In this document: one piece after another, positions 20,174-64,000 of the stretch | Numbering within the stretch: position 1 is the stretch's first letter | Layout: the number at the start of each line of letters is the position of its first letter | Assembly: GCA_963854735.1 (NCBI GenBank) | Contig: OY978109.1 | Location: forward strand, 864,018 to 928,017 | Direction: 5' to 3' | Origin: Marvania coccoides | Taxonomy: Eukaryota > Chlorophyta > Trebouxiophyceae > Chlorellales > Chlorellaceae | DNA length: 64,000 nt | Program-made: the position numbers and the translations under genes | The notes under the pieces: model-generated | What the model was told of the DNA's origin: nothing | Databases searched by the model: none | The model's input: only the letters and a program-made list of their open reading frames with translations

Positions 20174-20353
20174 TGGTTGTATTTTTTAAAGACATGTACA
20201 ACCAAAACATTCTAGTGTGTTTTGGTTGTAATTGTATTTACAAAAAATACAACCAAAACAGTCTAGTGTGTTTTGGTTGTAATTGTATTTACAAAAAATA
20301 CCAAAACATTCTAGTGTGTTTTGGTTGAAGAATGTTTAAAAAAAAATACAACC
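20174..20353. repeat. 50-bp palindromic tandem repeats between convergent genes
   Basis: About 2.7 copies of a 50-bp unit start at 20199, 20249 and about 20299. Each of the first two holds ACAACCAAAACA, an 8-base spacer (TTCTAGTG-like), then TGTTTTGGTTGT, a perfect hairpin. The cluster is itself bracketed by GGTTGTATTTTTTAAA (20174-20189) and its approximate inverse ending ACAACC (to 20353). TGTAA occurs on the plus strand at 20227 and 20278 and on the minus strand at 20242 and 20293. It sits between the 3' ends of the OMA1-like and DnaJ genes and may form a two-way 3'-end processing region. Confidence 0.7.
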
Positions 20354-22504: not shown

Positions 22505-23089
22505 ATGGCGGCCGCAGTGGATGTCAAGCTTTTTGGCAAGTGGAGCTTCGATGAGGTTGAGGTGAACGACATCTCCCTGGAGGATTACCTGGCGGTGAAG
22601 CCCAAGTACGCGCGGTTCACCACCCACTCCGCGGGCCGCTTCCAGAAGAAGCGCTTCCGCAAGGCGCAGTGCCCCATCGTGGAGCGCCTCACCAACAGCT
22701 TGATGATGCACGGTCGCAACAACGGCAAGAAGCTGATGGCGGTGCGCATCGTGCAGCACGCCTTTGACGTGGTGCACCTGCTCACCGACCAGAACCCCAT
22801 CCAGGTGCTGGTGGACGCCATCATCAACGGCGGACCCCGTGAGGACGCCACCCGCATCGGTTCCGCGGGCGTGGTGCGTCGCCAGGCTGTGGACGTGTCG
22901 CCCCTGCGCCGTGTCAACCAGGCCATCTGGCTCATCACCACCGGCGCGCGCGAGTCGGCGTTCCGCAACATCAAGACCATCGCCGAGTGCCTGGCCGACG
23001 AGCTGATCAACGCCGCCAAGGGATCCTCCAACTCGTACGCAATCAAGAAGAAGGACGAGCTGGAGCGCGTGGCAAAGGCCAACCGGTAA
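22505..23089 (+). CDS. RPS5: Cytosolic 40S ribosomal protein S5 (uS7)
   Basis: One exon encodes 194 aa, the usual length. It carries the conserved [22 protein letters not shown]-terminus, [27 protein letters not shown], and the C-terminal block [48 protein letters not shown]. This is the eukaryotic uS7 of the small-subunit head, which contacts mRNA and the E-site tRNA. The start is the only sensible ATG ([10 protein letters not shown]). Codons are strongly GC-ending, as expected of a highly expressed gene. TGTAA at 23252-23256, about 160 nt after the stop, may be the poly(A) signal. Its GC-rich, intronless coding part contrasts with neighbours. Confidence 0.97.
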
Positions 23090-23482
23090 ACAGCAGCAGC
23101 AGCAGTACAGTGAGAACAACATCAATTTGGTGGATGACGATTTTATGGTGGAACGGCAACAAGCGGGCGGTGGTGCTGATGGGGAGGAGCGGCGATTGAC
23201 TGGACGGCGTGTTTGAGTGTGTTCAATTGTGGTGCTCAAGCGGCGCCATCCTGTAAAAAAATTAAATGGCCATTGCTTCTTCTTGAGATTTTCAGAGGGG
23301 AGGAGGGACAAGAGAGACGACGAATTATTTTGAACAAAAAACCCTGAACCTGCTCGCATTTTGTGTTCACATTAAATTTAGCTTCAACATTAATGCGGTT
23401 TACACCGCCCCAAAGCCATTAATTCACCGCCGCAGCTCAAAGATTGACTGGCAGCACCCATCTCCCAAGTGTTTGCGACATT
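23090..23482. other. RPS5 3' region and promoter of the lipoyl-KGD4 gene
   Basis: About 390 bp follows the RPS5 stop. It begins with a short CAG repeat, has TGTAA at 23252, then AT-rich sequence up to the next gene's ATG at 23483. No coding gene is visible. Confidence 0.45.
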
Positions 23483-24399
23483 ATGAGCTCTGTTACTTTT
23501 CTTCGAGCGTCTCGGACGCATGTTGGACGGGTCTTGGCGAAGAGCACGTGGCTGAGCGGCGATTTCGGAGGTGTGGCTCGCCAACTCGAGTCATCGAGTA
23601 GTAATCCCTCTGCCGCACGACCTCCAGCGTTGCCTTCGCCGACGCAGCTGCGGCCATTTATCGCCTCTCCAGCTGCGATGATGGCCATCCAGGTCGCGGT
23701 GCCTCAGCTTGGCGAGAGCATCACAGAGGGCAGCATCGCCGCCATTCTGAAGCAGCCGGGTGACCGGGTGGAGGAGGACGAGCCCATCATGCAAATCGAG
23801 ACGGATAAAGTCACCATCGACGTGCGCGCGCCCCGGGCAGGCATCCTGGAAGCCATCCTGGTGAGACAGTTTTTCCAGAGAGAGGAAGATTCCGCCGCCC
23901 GAAAATTTAATTTCCAATGTTTGTTGAACTGTTGCCTTTGCAGGTGAAAGAAGAGGAGGATGTGACGGTGGGCCATCTCATAGCCATCATCAACGAGGAA
24001 GGAGCTAAAGCAGCAGCGCCAGCAAGTGCTCCTGCTGCTGCCGCTCCTGCAGCGGAGACCAACATTGCAGCTGAGGCCGTGGCGGCGCCTGAGACGGCAG
24101 GAGCAGCAGAGAGCGCTGGCCCCTCCTCTTCGACGCGTCGCCAGCCCTCCATCAGATTTCCGCCGCGCCGCACAGCAGCTGGGGAGGTAATCAGCATGAT
24201 GCCGGCAGAAGCGGCCAAAGAAGCGGCAGCAGGGGTGGCAGCTGCGTATCAGAAGCCCGTCCTCATGGCTGCGCCCCCCAAGGAGCCTCGCCTTTTCGTC
24301 AGAGTGGCTCCCCGCCCCTCCGGGCCGCCGGCGCCCCCCAGAAAGGATCTTAGCGAGTGGGAAATCGAACAAATCATGTTGGGAGGGGCTGACATGTGA
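23483..24399 (+). CDS. Lipoyl-domain protein with KGD4/MRPS36-like C-terminus (2-oxoglutarate dehydrogenase component)
   Basis: Two exons (23483-23860 and 23944-24399) give 277 aa. Residues 1 to about 75 form a basic, Ser/Arg-rich mitochondrial presequence. Residues about 78-155 are a complete E2o-type lipoyl domain starting VAVPQLGESITEG, with the lipoylated lysine in ETDKVTID. An Ala/Pro linker follows. There is no catalytic acyltransferase domain and no E3-binding domain; the gene stops and citrate synthase follows on the other strand. Instead, the tail has PSIRFPPRR (about residue 200) and ends SEWEIEQIMLGGADM. These match two conserved blocks of KGD4/MRPS36, the small subunit that tethers E3 to the 2-oxoglutarate dehydrogenase E1-E2 core (IRFPxRR and E-x-E-x-I-x-x-GG). 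It looks like a fusion of a lipoyl arm with KGD4; function in that mitochondrial complex is inferred. Confidence 0.75.
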
Positions 24400-24814: not shown

Positions 24815-26367
24815 TTAAGCAGCGTGATTTGCCGCTGCCTTTGCCCTCAGCAGGTCCATGGTCATTGACTTGGGTCGCTCAATGGGCAGCCCCAGCGCCC
24901 GAGACCATATGCCCTGGCTCAGCACGCCCAGCGCGCGAGACACCCCAAACAGCACCGTGTAGAAGCTGTCTTGGGTGATGCCGTAGTACTGCAGCAGCAC
25001 CCCGCTGTGCGCGTCAACGTTGGGCCAAGGGTTCTTCACCTTGCCGGTCTGCGTGAGCACGTCGGGCACCACGTCGTACAGCAGGCTCACCAGCTTGAAC
25101 AGCGGGTACTCCGGCATGTGCTTGAGGCAGAACTCGCGCTGCGACATGTAGCGGGGGTCGGTGCGCCGCAGCACAGCGTGCCCAAACCCAGGAACCACTT
25201 TGCCGCTCTTGAGGGTGGCCCACACAAACTCGGTGAGCTGCTCCTTGGTGGGGGCGTCCCCCAGCTGCTCCCGCACCCCCGTCAGCCACCGCAGCACCTC
25301 CTGGTTGGCCAGCCCATGCAGCGGCCCCGCCAGCCCCGTCATCCCAGCAACGAAGCACAGGTAGGGGTCGGACAGCGCTGATCCCACCAGGTGGGTGGCG
25401 TGCGCCGACACGTTACCTCCCTCGTGGTCTGCGTGGATGGTCTGGTACATGCGCATCATCTCCAGCGCGCCCTCGTCTGCACCGTACCCCATCATGTGGG
25501 CCAGGTTGGCGGCCCAATCCAGGCTGGGGTGGGCCTCGGGGACGGCGGGCAGGTCGGGCTTGTAGGTGCGGCGGTAGATGAGGGCTGCCACCGCCGGCAG
25601 TTTTGCGATCAAATCCATCGAGTCCTCAAACACCGGCTCCCAGTACTTGGTCTTGTGGATCCCCGTCTCGTAGGCGGCGGCGAACTTGCAGCCGGGCTGC
25701 AGCGCCAGCACCGCTGCTGCAAACTGCGTCATGGGGTGGGTGGAGGGCGGCATGGCGGCAAGCACGGCGGGGATGTGGGCGGGAAGGGCGCTGCGTTCGC
25801 GCAGCATCTCGGTCACGGAAGCCACTTGCTCGGCGGTGGGGATGTCCCCGGTGAGGAGCAGCCACAGCAGGCCCTCGGGGAGGGGCTCTCCCCCTGGGAT
25901 TGCCGCCGGCAGCTTTGCCTGCAGCTCAGGGATGTTGTGGCCGCGGAACCGAATGCCCTCGTCGGCGTCCAGCAATGAGGTCTCCCACAGCATGGCGGGG
26001 ATGCCGCGCATGCCGCCCAGCGCCTGTTCCACGGTGACGGTGCCCAGAGAGGCGGAGCCGCACTCCTTCTTCAACGCCTTGAGGCGCTCCTGTTGGACGG
26101 AAGGGGGAGGGGGGTGGGGGGGCAGCGATCAGGGCTGGCGACAGCGTGAGGCGGATGCCCGAATTGAGGGCAAACGCGCAAAGTCAATCAGCTCAATCGC
26201 ACCTGTTCGGCGGGGATCTTTTCGGCCAGTACGGCTTTGAGGTTGGTGCTGGTGGACAGGAATCGGTTGCCAAAGATGGATCCTATCCCAAACTCGGCCC
26301 CCAGCACCCCCTGCGAGATGGGGCCCAGGGCTTGCGCCAGGGTTTTCATGGATGTTGTTCCACGCAT
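24815..26367 (-). CDS. CS: Citrate synthase, mitochondrial
   Basis: Two exons (26367-26203 and 26089-24815) give 479 aa. The first exon encodes the presequence ([20 protein letters not shown] and on). The enzyme body is the long eukaryotic mitochondrial type ([21 protein letters not shown]). Active-site histidines and aspartate are visible: [44 protein letters not shown] and [11 protein letters not shown]. It condenses acetyl-CoA with oxaloacetate to start the TCA cycle in the matrix. The start is the first ATG of the presequence exon; one six codons downstream is also possible. It is convergent with a 2-oxoglutarate dehydrogenase-related gene. Confidence 0.96.
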
Positions 26368-52655: not shown

Positions 52656-55434
52656 TCAATCAGAGGCGGCTCGCAGCTCGGCGGCGATGTCTGAGAACAT
52701 CGGACGCGCTGCGGGGTCCGCCGCCCAGCACCGCCGCATCAGTGAGACGTAGGACGCCACAGACGATGCGTGCGTCCGGCGTTCTTCTGAAGAAAATCCG
52801 GGCAGCGCCGCCATCTCAGGCACAGCAAGGCGGTCGCCGCGCAGCACTGCAAACGGGATGGCCGCCGGGTTGGCATCATCCCACGGCACGCGCCACGTCA
52901 GCAGCTCCCACATCACCACGCCGAACGAGAACACGTCGGATGCCGCCGTTGAACGCTCGCCACGGAGCGCTTCTGGCGACAGCCACCGAGGGTTGGTTGC
53001 TCCACCACCGCCGGCCGTTGCCGCCGCGCCCCGCGTTTTCACGTTGATCACGTCCTCAACAAGCTTGCTCAGACCCATGTCGGCCACCTTGACGACCCAG
53101 TCCCCCGCCACCAGCAAATTTGGCGTCTTCAGGTCGCGGTGCACAATGGGCGGTGAGCGCGTGTGCAGGTGCAGCATGCCGGCGGCGGCGTCCGCAGCCA
53201 TGCGCACGCGCAGGCCCCAGGAAAGCTGCAAGGCAATCTCCTGATCACGGCGTCCTTTTTGGAGCAGGTCAAACACGGATCCCCGTGAGCAGTACTCAGT
53301 GGTAAGGGCGGGCGGCTCGGTGCAAAACCCGAGCAGTTGCACCACGTTAGCATGCCGCAGAGGCGCCATGGCGGCCACCTCGCCCACCAGCGCAGCGCAA
53401 GAGGCCACAGCAATCTCGGGCTCCTGCAGCCGGGTCCCAGTTTGTGACGCTATCGCCGCAGCGGCCGAGGCGCTGGCCACCGTCTTGGCGTCCAACAGCA
53501 GCTTCACCGCAACGGGGGCGTGCCGCACCTTAGCCAAAAACACCTTGCCAAAAGACCCCCATCCCAGGGCCTCCACAATGCGCACCTCGTTCCAGGCAAA
53601 CTCCAGGTCACGGACGTGCGTGGGCACCTCGAGGGCAGGGCCTGGACGACGTGCAGGTGGTTCTGATCGCTGGGAGCTCTGAGGGGAGTGCGTTTCGCGG
53701 AGGGATTCTCCATTCCCCGTTGCCATGTCGCCTGCGTGACTGTCGATCCAGCGCAGCACCGGGTCGCTCGTGGTGGGGCCATGGGGGTCGCTGGCGGTGC
53801 GGTCGACGCTCGTAGGCGCTACTACTGGACTCGCTGCTGGAAGTGTCAACACCAGCGAATCCTCAGGCCGCGTGGCGGGCAGAGGACTCGTGCTGGTCTT
53901 CGGCTTTTCCTGCGCGCGCTGTTTTGTGCGCCTTCGAGCGACCAACCAAGCAGCAGCCGCTACGAGGACACATGCTACGACCCCACCCGCCACCCCGCCA
54001 GCAATGACCGCGGGAGAAACCGAAGGAGACGGCGATAGAGTGGGAGACAGCGGGACGGAAACCATGAAGGCGCCATTTTTTACTACTGGGGTCGGCGTGG
54101 ATTTTGCCACACTGGTGCCATCGCCGAGTCTGCCATTGTCATTCCATCCCCAGCAGAACGCCGAGCCGTTGGTGGCCAGCGCGCAGGTGTGGTAGCTACC
54201 AGCGCTGATCTGCGTCCACGCCGTGCCGCCCCCGACCGGGGTCGGCGTGGATTTGGCCACGATGGTGCCGTCGCCCAGCTGGCCGTTTCCATTATATCCC
54301 CAGCAGAACGCCGAGCCGTTAGTGGCCAGCGCGCAGGTGTGGCTGTTACCAGCGCTGATCTGCGTCCATGCCGTGCCGCCTCCGACCAAGGTCGGCGTGG
54401 ATTTGATGGCGGTGGTGCTGCCGTTGCCGAGCCGGCCATCGTCATTCCTTCCCCAGCAGAATGCCGAGCCGCTGGTGGCCAGCGCGCAGGTGTGGTAGTT
54501 ACCAGCGCTGATCTGGGTCCACGCCGTGCCGTCCCCAACTGGGTTCGGCATGGATTTGGCAACGCTGGTGCCGTCGCCTAGCTGGCCGTTTCCATTATAC
54601 CCCCAGCAGAACGCCGAGCCGTTGGTGGCCAGTGCGCATGTGTGCCATTCACCAGCGCTGATCTGCGTCCATGCCGTGCTGCCGGTGACCGGGGTGGGCG
54701 TGGATTTGGCCGCGGCGGTGCCATCGCCGAGCCGGCCATCGTCATTTTTTCCCCAGCAGAACGCGACGCTGCTGGTGGCCAGCGCGCAGGTGTGGAAACT
54801 ACCAGCGCTGATCTGCGTCCACGCTGTGCCGCCCCCGACCGAGGTCGGCGTGGATTTTGCCACACTGGTGCCGTCGCCCAGCTGGCCGCCGTCATTCCCT
54901 CCCCAGCAGAACGCCGAGCCGCTGGTGGCCAGTGCGCAGGTGTGATAGCTACCAGCGCTGATCTGCGTCCACGCCGTGCCGCCCCGGACGAGGGTCGGCG
55001 TGGATTTGATGGCGGCGGTTGTGCCGTCGCCGAGCCGGCCATCGTCATTCCTTCCCCAGCAGAACGCCGAGCCGTTGGTGGCCAGCGCGCAGGTGTGGCT
55101 GTAACCAGCGCTGATCGCCTCTGGCGCGAGCTCGAGCGTCGCTCCTGCTCATGGGATGGGACGGGGAAAAGAAAAAAATATTATAAAATAAAATTAAAAA
55201 AGGCGCTAAGCATGAATTCGGATTCATCAACACGCAGGTATAAATTGTCCACCAAGCTGGCGTACCCTGCTGCTGCAAAAGTGCCCTGCTGCTGCGATGC
55301 CGCCCCGCCCTAAGGACGTCGGCGAGGTGATCGCGGTGCGATGAGGTATCCTCTTCCTCGGCACGAATCATGGGCACACGAGCGACCCAAATGGCCAGAA
55401 ACCACACGCACGCGCACATACGGCCCGCATACAT
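52656..55434 (-). CDS. Receptor-like kinase 1: seven RCC1-like repeats, membrane span, TKL-type kinase
   Basis: Two exons (55434-55266 and 55144-52656) give 885 aa. Exon 1 encodes a signal peptide (MYAGRMCACVWFLAIWVARV) and a short stretch ending RALLQQQ. Residues about 66-416 are seven almost identical repeats of about 50 aa, each with ISAGxxHTCALATxGSAFCWG and LGDGT, like the blades of an RCC1 propeller. A membrane span (AVIAGGVAGGVVACVLVAAAAW) lies near 440-460. The kinase (about 575-880) has GWGSFGKVF, the ATP lysine in VAVKLLL, HRDLKTPN, and ADMG where most kinases have DFG; APE appears as SPE. All catalytic residues are present. It probably senses an extracellular signal; ligand unknown. 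The tandem repeat DNA could cause copy-number variation. The neighbouring kinase gene is a paralogue in its cytosolic half. Confidence 0.85.
54070..55144 (-). repeat. Tandem 150-bp coding repeats of receptor-like kinase 1
   Basis: Seven near-identical units with a period of about 150 bp encode the RCC1-like blades. The minus-strand core of each unit reads ATCAGCGCTGG, then CACACCTGCGCGCTGGCCAC. Low divergence suggests recent unit duplication or ongoing gene conversion. The span is about 54070-55120. Confidence 0.7.
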
Positions 55435-55899: not shown

Positions 55900-56194
55900 A
55901 TTCGATATATTACTCAAACCCCGCGTATATATAGTAATTATTAAAATAAAAAGACATTGGCTTATCTATACTGGAGTTATCTATGCTGGAGCCCTGCCCC
56001 ACCAAAACTCACTTCATACACTGATGCCGATGATTCGTCGCCTCGCGTGGGCTCTGACGCTGGTGGCCGCCGTGCTCCATCAGGTGGGTCACACCCGGCA
56101 GGAACGCCTCTTCCCCCTTATGGCAACGCACGCCCGGGCGCTGACATCCCCGCTCATTTACAGGCCAATGTCGAGTGCCGGCAGGTACGGACTG
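55900..56194 (+). repeat. Duplicated segment matching 60552-60848
   Basis: About 290 bp, including TTGGCTTATCTATACTGGAG, the signal-peptide exon and its intron, are nearly identical to the sequence upstream of and within the secreted-protein gene at 60678. Homology begins in AT-rich sequence near 55900 and ends abruptly at CGGACTGC. Confidence 0.8.
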
Positions 56195-59904: not shown

Positions 59905-60677
59905 GGTGATCTGCGTGGAGCACGAGAAGATAGACTGAAAAAAAACTATACAGTTTCTCATCAGACCCCCTCTGCAGATTCATCAGCGACCGTGGGTAAC
60001 TCACAAAAAACACCGTCTCGCAATTTGAGATGCCGGAGGCAGTAGGAGACAGCAAAGGGGAGATGACCTAAAATTTAATAAAAAAATACAATGATGATAG
60101 AGCAAAAATGAGGGCAACCTTAGTGGAAACGAAAATTACAGTGCATCTTACCAAAAACAGCTATTGCAGATAAAAATGAGATTCAGAGACACCGCAGTTA
60201 CGGATTTATGAGTCAGCGGAAGATGGCTCCGATGAATGAGATCAGCGGGTCTTGATGTAGCGGCGGGGCGCCATCCTGCAAAGAAGAAGAAGAGTTAAGA
60301 GTTTGGTGAGACAGGAGTTGGGTGGAGCAAACGTGTTGTTATTGGAAACGCGGAGCAGCAGCTCAAGTTTTCTCACGTTTTTATTTTTATGATTGAGAAC
60401 CTACTTAGTAGGCTACTATGTAAAAAGGCAACTCATAGAAAAGTTCTTCTATGAGAATAACGTATTGAATGATTGAATTTAGTGAATGATTTGTCAAATA
60501 TCATAACATATATTGTGCGCATCAACAAAAGTTTGGATAGCAGGTTTTGACAGTAGATATATTAATCAACCCCCGCGTATATATATAGTAATTATTAATA
60601 AAAGAATACATTGGCTTATCTATACTGGAGTTATCTATGCTGGAGCCCTGCCCCACCAAAACTCACTTCATACACTG
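59905..60677. other. Intergenic region
   Basis: Mostly AT-rich. TCTTTGCAG then ATGGCGCCCCGCCGCTAC on the minus strand near 60245-60285 could be a splice acceptor and a ten-codon frame (MAPRRYIKTR and stop), but I cannot link it to any gene; it may be a 5' untranslated exon of kinase 2. The right end, from about 60552, is the duplicated segment also present at 55900. Confidence 0.4.
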
Positions 60678-63265: not shown

Positions 63266-63601
63266 AAGAAGGAGAAGAGCGAAAAGAAGAGCAAGAGGAA
63301 GACACAGATCGTGATCACGCCCGTGCATGTGGGTTCCCGCGGGAATACGCGCGACAACGGCAACTGTTTGGCGCAGCTCTTGGGGCGCGACAAGGACGTT
63401 CGGGCGTACTTCAAGAAGGCGTACTCTGGGGTGAACCTGTACGAGATGGGAGCGCCTATGAAAATCGACAACTACGTGCGAGCCGATGACGTCTATGTCG
63501 TGGTCCGCCCGGGGGGCAAGGTGACGCGCATTGTGTGCGGCGATCGCGAGCAGTACAAATACGGCATCATCTCCAGCAAGAAGAACGGCAAAAAGCTTTA
63601 G
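63266..63601 (+). CDS. Terminal exon of an unknown gene, abutting the telomere
   Basis: An open frame follows a strong splice acceptor (pyrimidine tract ending CCAAATAG at 63258-63265). It encodes about 111 residues: a Lys-rich start (KKEKSEKKSKRKTQIVITP), then a globular part including GNTRDNGNCLAQLLGRDKDV and DDVYVVVRPGGKVTRIVCGD, and a basic end, SSKKNGKKL. There is no in-frame ATG at the start, so an upstream exon is missing or unresolved. The last codon (CTT) and the stop (TAG) are formed by the first TTTAGGG repeat at 63597. The original C-terminus may therefore have been lost when this end was capped. I do not recognise the family. Confidence 0.5.
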   Translation, partial: KKEKSEKKSKRKTQIVITPVHVGSRGNTRDNGNCLAQLLGRDKDVRAYFKKAYSGVNLYEMGAPMKIDNYVRADDVYVVVRPGGKVTRIVCGDREQYKYGIISSKKNGKKL

Positions 63602-64000
63602 GGTTTAGGGTTTAGGGTTTAGGGTTTTAGGTTTTAGGGTTTAGGGTTTTAGGGTTTTTAGGGTTTAGGGTTTAGGGTTTAGGTTTTAGGTTTAGGGTTT
63701 AGGGTTTAGGGTTTAGGGTTTAGGGTTTAGGGTTTAGGGTTTAGGGTTTAGGGTTTAGGGTTTAGGGTTTAGGGTTTAGGGTTTAGGGTTTAGGGTTTAG
63801 GGTTTAGGGTTTAGGGTTTAGGGTTTAGGGTTTAGGGTTTAGGGTTTAGGGTTTAGGGTTTAGGGTTTAGGGTTTAGGGTTTAGGGTTTAGGGTTTAGGG
63901 TTTAGGGTTTAGGGTTTAGGGTTTAGGGTTTAGGGTTTAGGGTTTAGGGTTTAGGGTTTAGGGTTTAGGGTTTAGGGTTTAGGGTTTAGGGTTTAGGGTT
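63597..64000 (+). repeat. Chromosome-end telomere array (TTTAGGG)n
   Basis: From 63597 to the window end the sequence is TTTAGGG repeats. The first 110 bases include variants (TTTTAGGG, TTTTTAGGG and TTTAGGTTTTAGG); after about 63695 the array is perfect. The G-rich strand runs 5' to 3' toward the end, as expected for a right-hand chromosome terminus. This Arabidopsis-type repeat is common in green algae and plants, and is also found in some other groups. Confidence 0.98.

Follow-up and report, generated by a model that had tools for sequence, protein, structure and literature searches.

A green algal gene that probably joins an E2o-type lipoyl domain to a KGD4/MRPS36-like tail

The DNA examined here is a stretch of 64,000 nucleotides (the window) from the green alga Marvania coccoides (assembly GCA_963854735.1, contig OY978109.1, positions 864,018 to 928,017), whose genome of 22.46 Mb is assembled in 15 contigs. 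On its forward strand, at 23483..24399, lies a gene for a protein of 277 amino acids, with relatives of like length, in which a lipoyl domain is followed by a tail resembling KGD4/MRPS36. As judged from sequence, the product probably (at a probability of roughly 0.82) serves the alga's mitochondrial 2-oxoglutarate dehydrogenase as its KGD4/MRPS36 (E3BPo) subunit, with an E2o-type lipoyl domain built into the same chain. By analogy, it is likely to provide an additional swinging arm and to relay electrons to E3. The tethering of E3 in the eukaryotic 2-oxoglutarate dehydrogenase has been explained only recently, from yeast, Chaetomium, and mammals. Eukaryotic E2o is described as lacking an E3-binding domain, and MRPS36 has been proposed as a stand-in, its N-terminal residues binding E3 and its C-terminal residues binding E2o (PMC9974300); the Chaetomium KGD4 has been named E3BPo (PMC10203282). 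The E2o and MRPS36 sequences of the former study were gathered from bovine queries, and its main text contains no word beginning with 'plant' or 'alga' (PMC9974300). Among the matches listed from open-access papers, no lipoyl-KGD4 fusion was found described in titles or the starts of abstracts. If the proposed assignment is correct, an E3 adaptor that bears an arm would change the number and placement of swinging arms in an enzyme of the tricarboxylic acid cycle, would allow a direct test of electron sharing among arms near E3, and would constitute a second, separate case of an E3-binding protein (E3BP) with an arm.

Reading-frame and splice analysis bore out the coordinates, stop, and architecture that a first-pass annotation of this DNA had given for the gene. 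Exon 1 (23483-23860) and exon 2 (23944-24399, stop included), both on the forward strand, flank a GT-AG intron of 83 nt in phase 0 (23861..23943). The nearest in-frame stop 5' of the start is at 23420, with no ATG in between, and retention of the intron would lead to a stop at codon 155. Residues 1-68 (23483..23686) form a presumed mitochondrial presequence that is poorly conserved, the first 70 residues having a mean identity of 18.8% across 40 relatives. The lipoyl domain begins at residue 69, runs to residue 126 in exon 1 (23687..23860, including the lysine loop ETDKVTID), and is completed in exon 2 by residues 127-142 (23944..23991); Lys109, the predicted site of lipoylation, is encoded at 23807..23809. 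Splicing restores this domain, with the Pfam Biotin_lipoyl match going from 1.1e-14 for exon 1 alone to 5.1e-19 for the spliced protein (residues 70-142). An Ala/Pro-rich linker follows (residues 143-191, 23992..24138), and its sequence, low conservation, and low confidence in the structure model of a relative suggest that it is flexible. The tail opens with the N block RQPSIRFPPRRTAAGEVISMMP (the block of RQPSIRFPPRR; residues 192-213, 24139..24204), which is conserved and putatively equivalent to the end of KGD4/MRPS36 on the E3 side, and closes with the C block KDLSEWEIEQIMLGGA (residues 260-275, 24343..24390) and the stop. The C block is identified by profile matches as the putative counterpart of the E2o-side end, the roles of both ends being those described for MRPS36 (PMC9974300).

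Several comparisons agree with the earlier description of a complete, E2o-type lipoyl domain. The top three NCBIfam matches are all E2o models, matched only over their N-terminal 118-125 positions and far under the full-length cut-offs (TIGR01347 gives 91.4 bits, its cut-off being 378.65). The best sequence matches among solved structures are E2 chains, two of E2p first and then E2o. For the relative P0001, which is 51% identical to the window protein over 99% of the query, a structure model was computed with 40 aligned relatives as input. In this model (mean predicted local distance difference test score 71.5, predicted template modelling score 0.39), the lipoyl fold is confident, with the lysine between two strands, as are the surroundings of both tail blocks, while the presequence and linker are of low confidence. 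A Foldseek search with the model placed 1ghj, a lipoyl domain of E2o, in third position (E 4.9e-7), behind two integrative models with E2 chains. The protein thus resembles E2o (SucB/DLST) in having an E2o-type lipoyl domain with a lysine loop and then an Ala/Pro linker, but it differs in that no 2-oxoacid_dh domain was found in its 277 residues by Pfam search, as had been claimed from the letters alone.

The fusion is not confined to this alga. A similarity search with the window protein returned 3455 proteins, and both tail blocks are present in 55 of the best 120 of them. Named carriers include Chlorella sorokiniana, C. variabilis, C. vulgaris, Micractinium, Parachlorella, Prototheca wickerhamii, and Coccomyxa, together with Tetradesmus (Chlorophyceae) and Cymbomonas (Pyramimonadophyceae). 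Ten of 116 further matches listed have both blocks by looser patterns, including two from the Apicomplexa, P0128 of Eimeria media and P0138 of Besnoitia besnoiti. A protein labelled as chrysophyte (P0160) has the N block in a gene model that ends without the C block. Two look-alikes of the Eimeria media protein (P0139 and P0146) likewise combine a lipoyl domain with a KGD4-like tail. Database names of the named relatives are mostly 'hypothetical protein', and some are dihydrolipoamide acetyl- or acyltransferase or 'succinyltransferase component at N-terminal half'; the Besnoitia protein is named 'putative dihydrolipoamide acyltransferase', yet no acyltransferase domain was found in it. A protein of Closterium sp. 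NIES-65 (P0043) has repeated lipoyl-type stretches with neither acyltransferase nor tail blocks and may be a faulty gene model. The first-pass picture of a bifunctional subunit of this alga holds as to the combination of lipoyl domain and KGD4-like tail, with E3 binding and lipoylation as predicted properties.

A fused set of 66 proteins, the window's included, was sorted by pattern from 246, setting aside broken or intron-retaining relatives (e.g., P0003, P0036, P0042, and P0050). The N pattern is present in 65 of these (all but P0074) and the C pattern in 65 (all but P0063). HR..DG, presumably the E2 active-site pattern, occurs in none of the 66, and both tail blocks occur together in none of 67 proteins that carry that pattern. 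A missed downstream acyltransferase exon was considered and rejected, as this block is also where relatives stop, and MMETSP gives one of them, P0022, the transcript type 'complete'. Lys109 is invariant across all 23 rows of one alignment (A1), and the DK lysine motif is present in 64 of the 66 fused proteins, the other two (P0240 and P0241) starting inside the domain. Among 40 relatives, mean pairwise identity is 56.5% in the lipoyl domain, 22.3% in the linker, 53.4% in the N block, 19.5% in the middle of the tail, and 61.6% in the C block. These values bear on an alternative in which the lipoyl domain is a structural or docking module only, unlipoylated or non-catalytic, and the protein is a plain KGD4. 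Such a role is conceivable in a complex whose E2o core already supplies 24 arm-bearing subunits (PMC9974300), but it is unlikely given that the lysine is retained and that the lipoyl domain is conserved about as strongly as the binding blocks.

The conserved blocks at both ends of the tail are of KGD4 type, the C block by profile and the N block by position and residue pattern. The curated Pfam KGD4 model, PF10937, scores above its cut-off on several full-length relatives that are not of chlorophyte type (P0084, 6.4e-8; Eimeria media P0128, 7.9e-6; P0123; P0155; and P0139). On tails alone, the model matches eight of nine such relatives at E values up to 1 and three of 16 chlorophyte-type tails at E values up to 10 (best 0.0096); on full-length members of alignment A1 it matches one of 23 at E values up to 1, with the same score as that of P0084. 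A profile built from the nine relatives' tails gives the window tail 26.6 bits, and none of 5000 shuffles scores as high (maximum 11.7), in a control that kept composition only and did not include unrelated real proteins. Similarly, all 16 chlorophyte-type tails outscore their own shuffles (500 each) with this profile. An hhalign comparison of the nine-tail and 16-tail sets gave a probability of 97.5 (E 6.7e-12) over the C block. Since eight of the nine relatives' tails match PF10937 and the window tail matches the profile of those nine, its membership in KGD4 is supported by homology through intermediates, not by a curated Pfam score. The likeness to KGD4/MRPS36/YMR31 (E4 or E3BPo, PF10937) extends to the layout, in which N and C blocks flank a stretch of low conservation; the fusion differs in that a presequence-like start and a full E2o-type lipoyl domain are added in front.

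The partners found in the genome are consistent with this assignment. Contig C1 carries a gene for a distinct E2o, in a 376-aa open stretch that contains its own lipoyl domain and an acyltransferase domain (2.4e-83) and scores above the sucB cut-off; a Pfam search of that stretch found no E3-binding domain (PF02817), a further likeness to the systems that use KGD4. The N-terminal motif of E1o (PF16078) was also found in the genome (6.7e-15). A search of the genome with the window tail matched at its own locus only. The PF10937 search gave one candidate (C6:470590, E 0.0247), which is under the cut-off, contains one internal stop, and was taken as chance, and P0084 gave one weak match (C8:914271, E 2.25, 11 bits, residues 88-182), likewise taken as chance, its remaining matches falling in lipoyl domains, either of E2 genes or of the fusion gene itself. 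In these searches, which read exon by exon and score only the best candidates, the fusion therefore appears to be the only KGD4 of the genome, and, with the separate E2o, lipoyl arms would reach the complex from two sources. When a tail profile was used to look for stand-alone KGD4 in the protein collection, a search that reaches only proteins of similar length that have exact five-residue words in common, nine proteins were returned at E values up to 10, none Pfam-labelled. Seven of these look by eye like pieces of the same fusion, and the others are P0242 (93 aa) and P0244 (54 aa). P0242 has both tail blocks without a lipoyl domain and is possibly the lone KGD4 of a protist, or a fragment. 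The tail profiles matched no KGD4 among solved structures, and exon 2 had no match in a search of phages.

A number of observations weigh against identifying the protein as KGD4. First, the window protein's own tail gives no match to PF10937, which also sets it apart from the known KGD4 proteins; the profile check that the first-pass annotation proposed thus returned, for this protein taken alone, the outcome it had named as speaking against its claim, and its KGD4-like tail stands through the profile of relatives. Second, among the full-length non-green relatives, P0146 falls under the PF10937 cut-off, and P0138 (Besnoitia) and P0160 give no match. Third, the hhalign match covers 19 C-block columns only, the N block being supported by a shared I.F position and conservation. 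Fourth, the search that found no convincing second KGD4-like tail proceeded exon by exon over the best candidates and could miss a lone KGD4 split by introns. Finally, a study quoted in a review found no gain in the activity of the human complex upon addition of MRPS36 (PMC8146983). The miss of PF10937, together with the fact that no more than an E2o's N-terminal portion is present, might also be read as the mark of a truncated E2o duplicate or pseudogene that resembles KGD4 by chance. This is highly improbable, because both blocks and the layout recur in many relatives across the Chlorophyta and beyond, including Eimeria and Besnoitia; the reading frame is open, the splice sites are intact, and the shuffles fall short of the tail score.

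The binding and chemistry proposed for the KGD4-like fusion are drawn throughout from analogy with known complexes. The C block would dock on the E2o core and the N block would hold the E3 dimer, with the lipoyl domain, predicted to be lipoylated at Lys109, hanging on the E3 side by the 49-residue Ala/Pro tether. From there, the arm could visit E1o, E2o, and E3 as E2o's own arms do or, alternatively, could take electrons from neighbouring reduced arms and pass them to the tethered E3. The overall role would be like that of E3BP (protein X) of pyruvate dehydrogenase, also a non-catalytic subunit that recruits E3 and brings a lipoyl arm, but it would be achieved with different parts, as the fusion protein has neither the peripheral subunit-binding domain nor the E2-like inner domain of E3BP (no PF02817 or PF00198). 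KGD4 has been noted inside a longer annotated protein before, in a Chaetomium entry that joins it to holocytochrome c synthase; there, the partner is unrelated, lies behind KGD4, and belongs to what is described as a fused, misannotated protein (PMC10203282).

To examine the origin of the fusion, 64 lipoyl domains were placed in a tree over 77 columns; they come from 35 of the 66 fused proteins, P0160, and 28 of 104 full-length E2-type proteins (20 eukaryotic and 8 bacterial by labels assigned in the analysis). Chlorophyte-type fused domains group with green E2o, one further E2o (P0177), and bacterial domains, and the other fused domains group with 12 of 13 non-green E2o (a split valued 94/95, not starred). 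A single clade of all fused lipoyl domains was rejected by the approximately unbiased test (p 0.012), a weak result from 77 columns that argues against a single origin; one clade was not rejected for the green fused domains alone (0.199) or for the others alone (0.372), in tests set after the tree was seen. Either repeated fusion or an old fusion, with an arm kept matched to the E1o and E2o of each lineage, would agree with the tree. There is about an even chance that the E3-recruiting subunit widely takes the form of a KGD4 with a lipoyl arm, in green algae, coccidian parasites, protists, and perhaps chrysophytes, a form that either was fused repeatedly or is the older one, and that 2-oxoglutarate dehydrogenase has its own armed E3BP independent of that of pyruvate dehydrogenase. 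Were it the older form, the short stand-alone KGD4 that animals and fungi have would be a reduced remnant, and the arm would have stayed similar to each lineage's E2o arm. The tree also bears on whether the lipoyl part instead serves another lipoate complex (e.g., the branched-chain complex or glycine decarboxylase), with the KGD4-like tail as a general E3 hook. E3 is common to several lipoate complexes, which would permit such a role, but the domain is E2o-like and tends (weakly supported) to fall beside the lipoyl domains of E2o from similar origins, and the C block matches the E2o-binding end of KGD4; this alternative is accordingly very unlikely.

Downstream of the fusion gene, the frame on the opposing strand at 24815-26128 resembles citrate synthase by eye, as the first-pass annotation had stated for the convergent neighbor. 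Directly upstream (22507-23089, forward strand) is a frame resembling ribosomal protein S5 (RPS5), also named by eye. In two database gene models, P0019 and P0030 (Prototheca wickerhamii), an RPS5-like protein is joined to the lipoyl-KGD4 protein, which begins right after the last residues of the former. The adjacency probably reflects conserved gene order, with the joined models being merged ones, though joined transcripts are possible. The gene lies about 39 kb from an array of approximately 57 copies of TTTAGGG (63597-64000), presumably the plant-type telomere repeat, at which both the window and its contig (C13) end. Elsewhere in the window, a minisatellite with a 51-bp unit in about three copies occupies 20197-20353, and a tandem repeat with a 150-bp unit in 6.8 copies, which could encode a repeat protein, occupies 54088-55116. 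Additionally, an identical 15-base doublet occurs at 55962-55991 and 60616-60645, 4.65 kb apart towards the contig end, and may mark a larger duplication.
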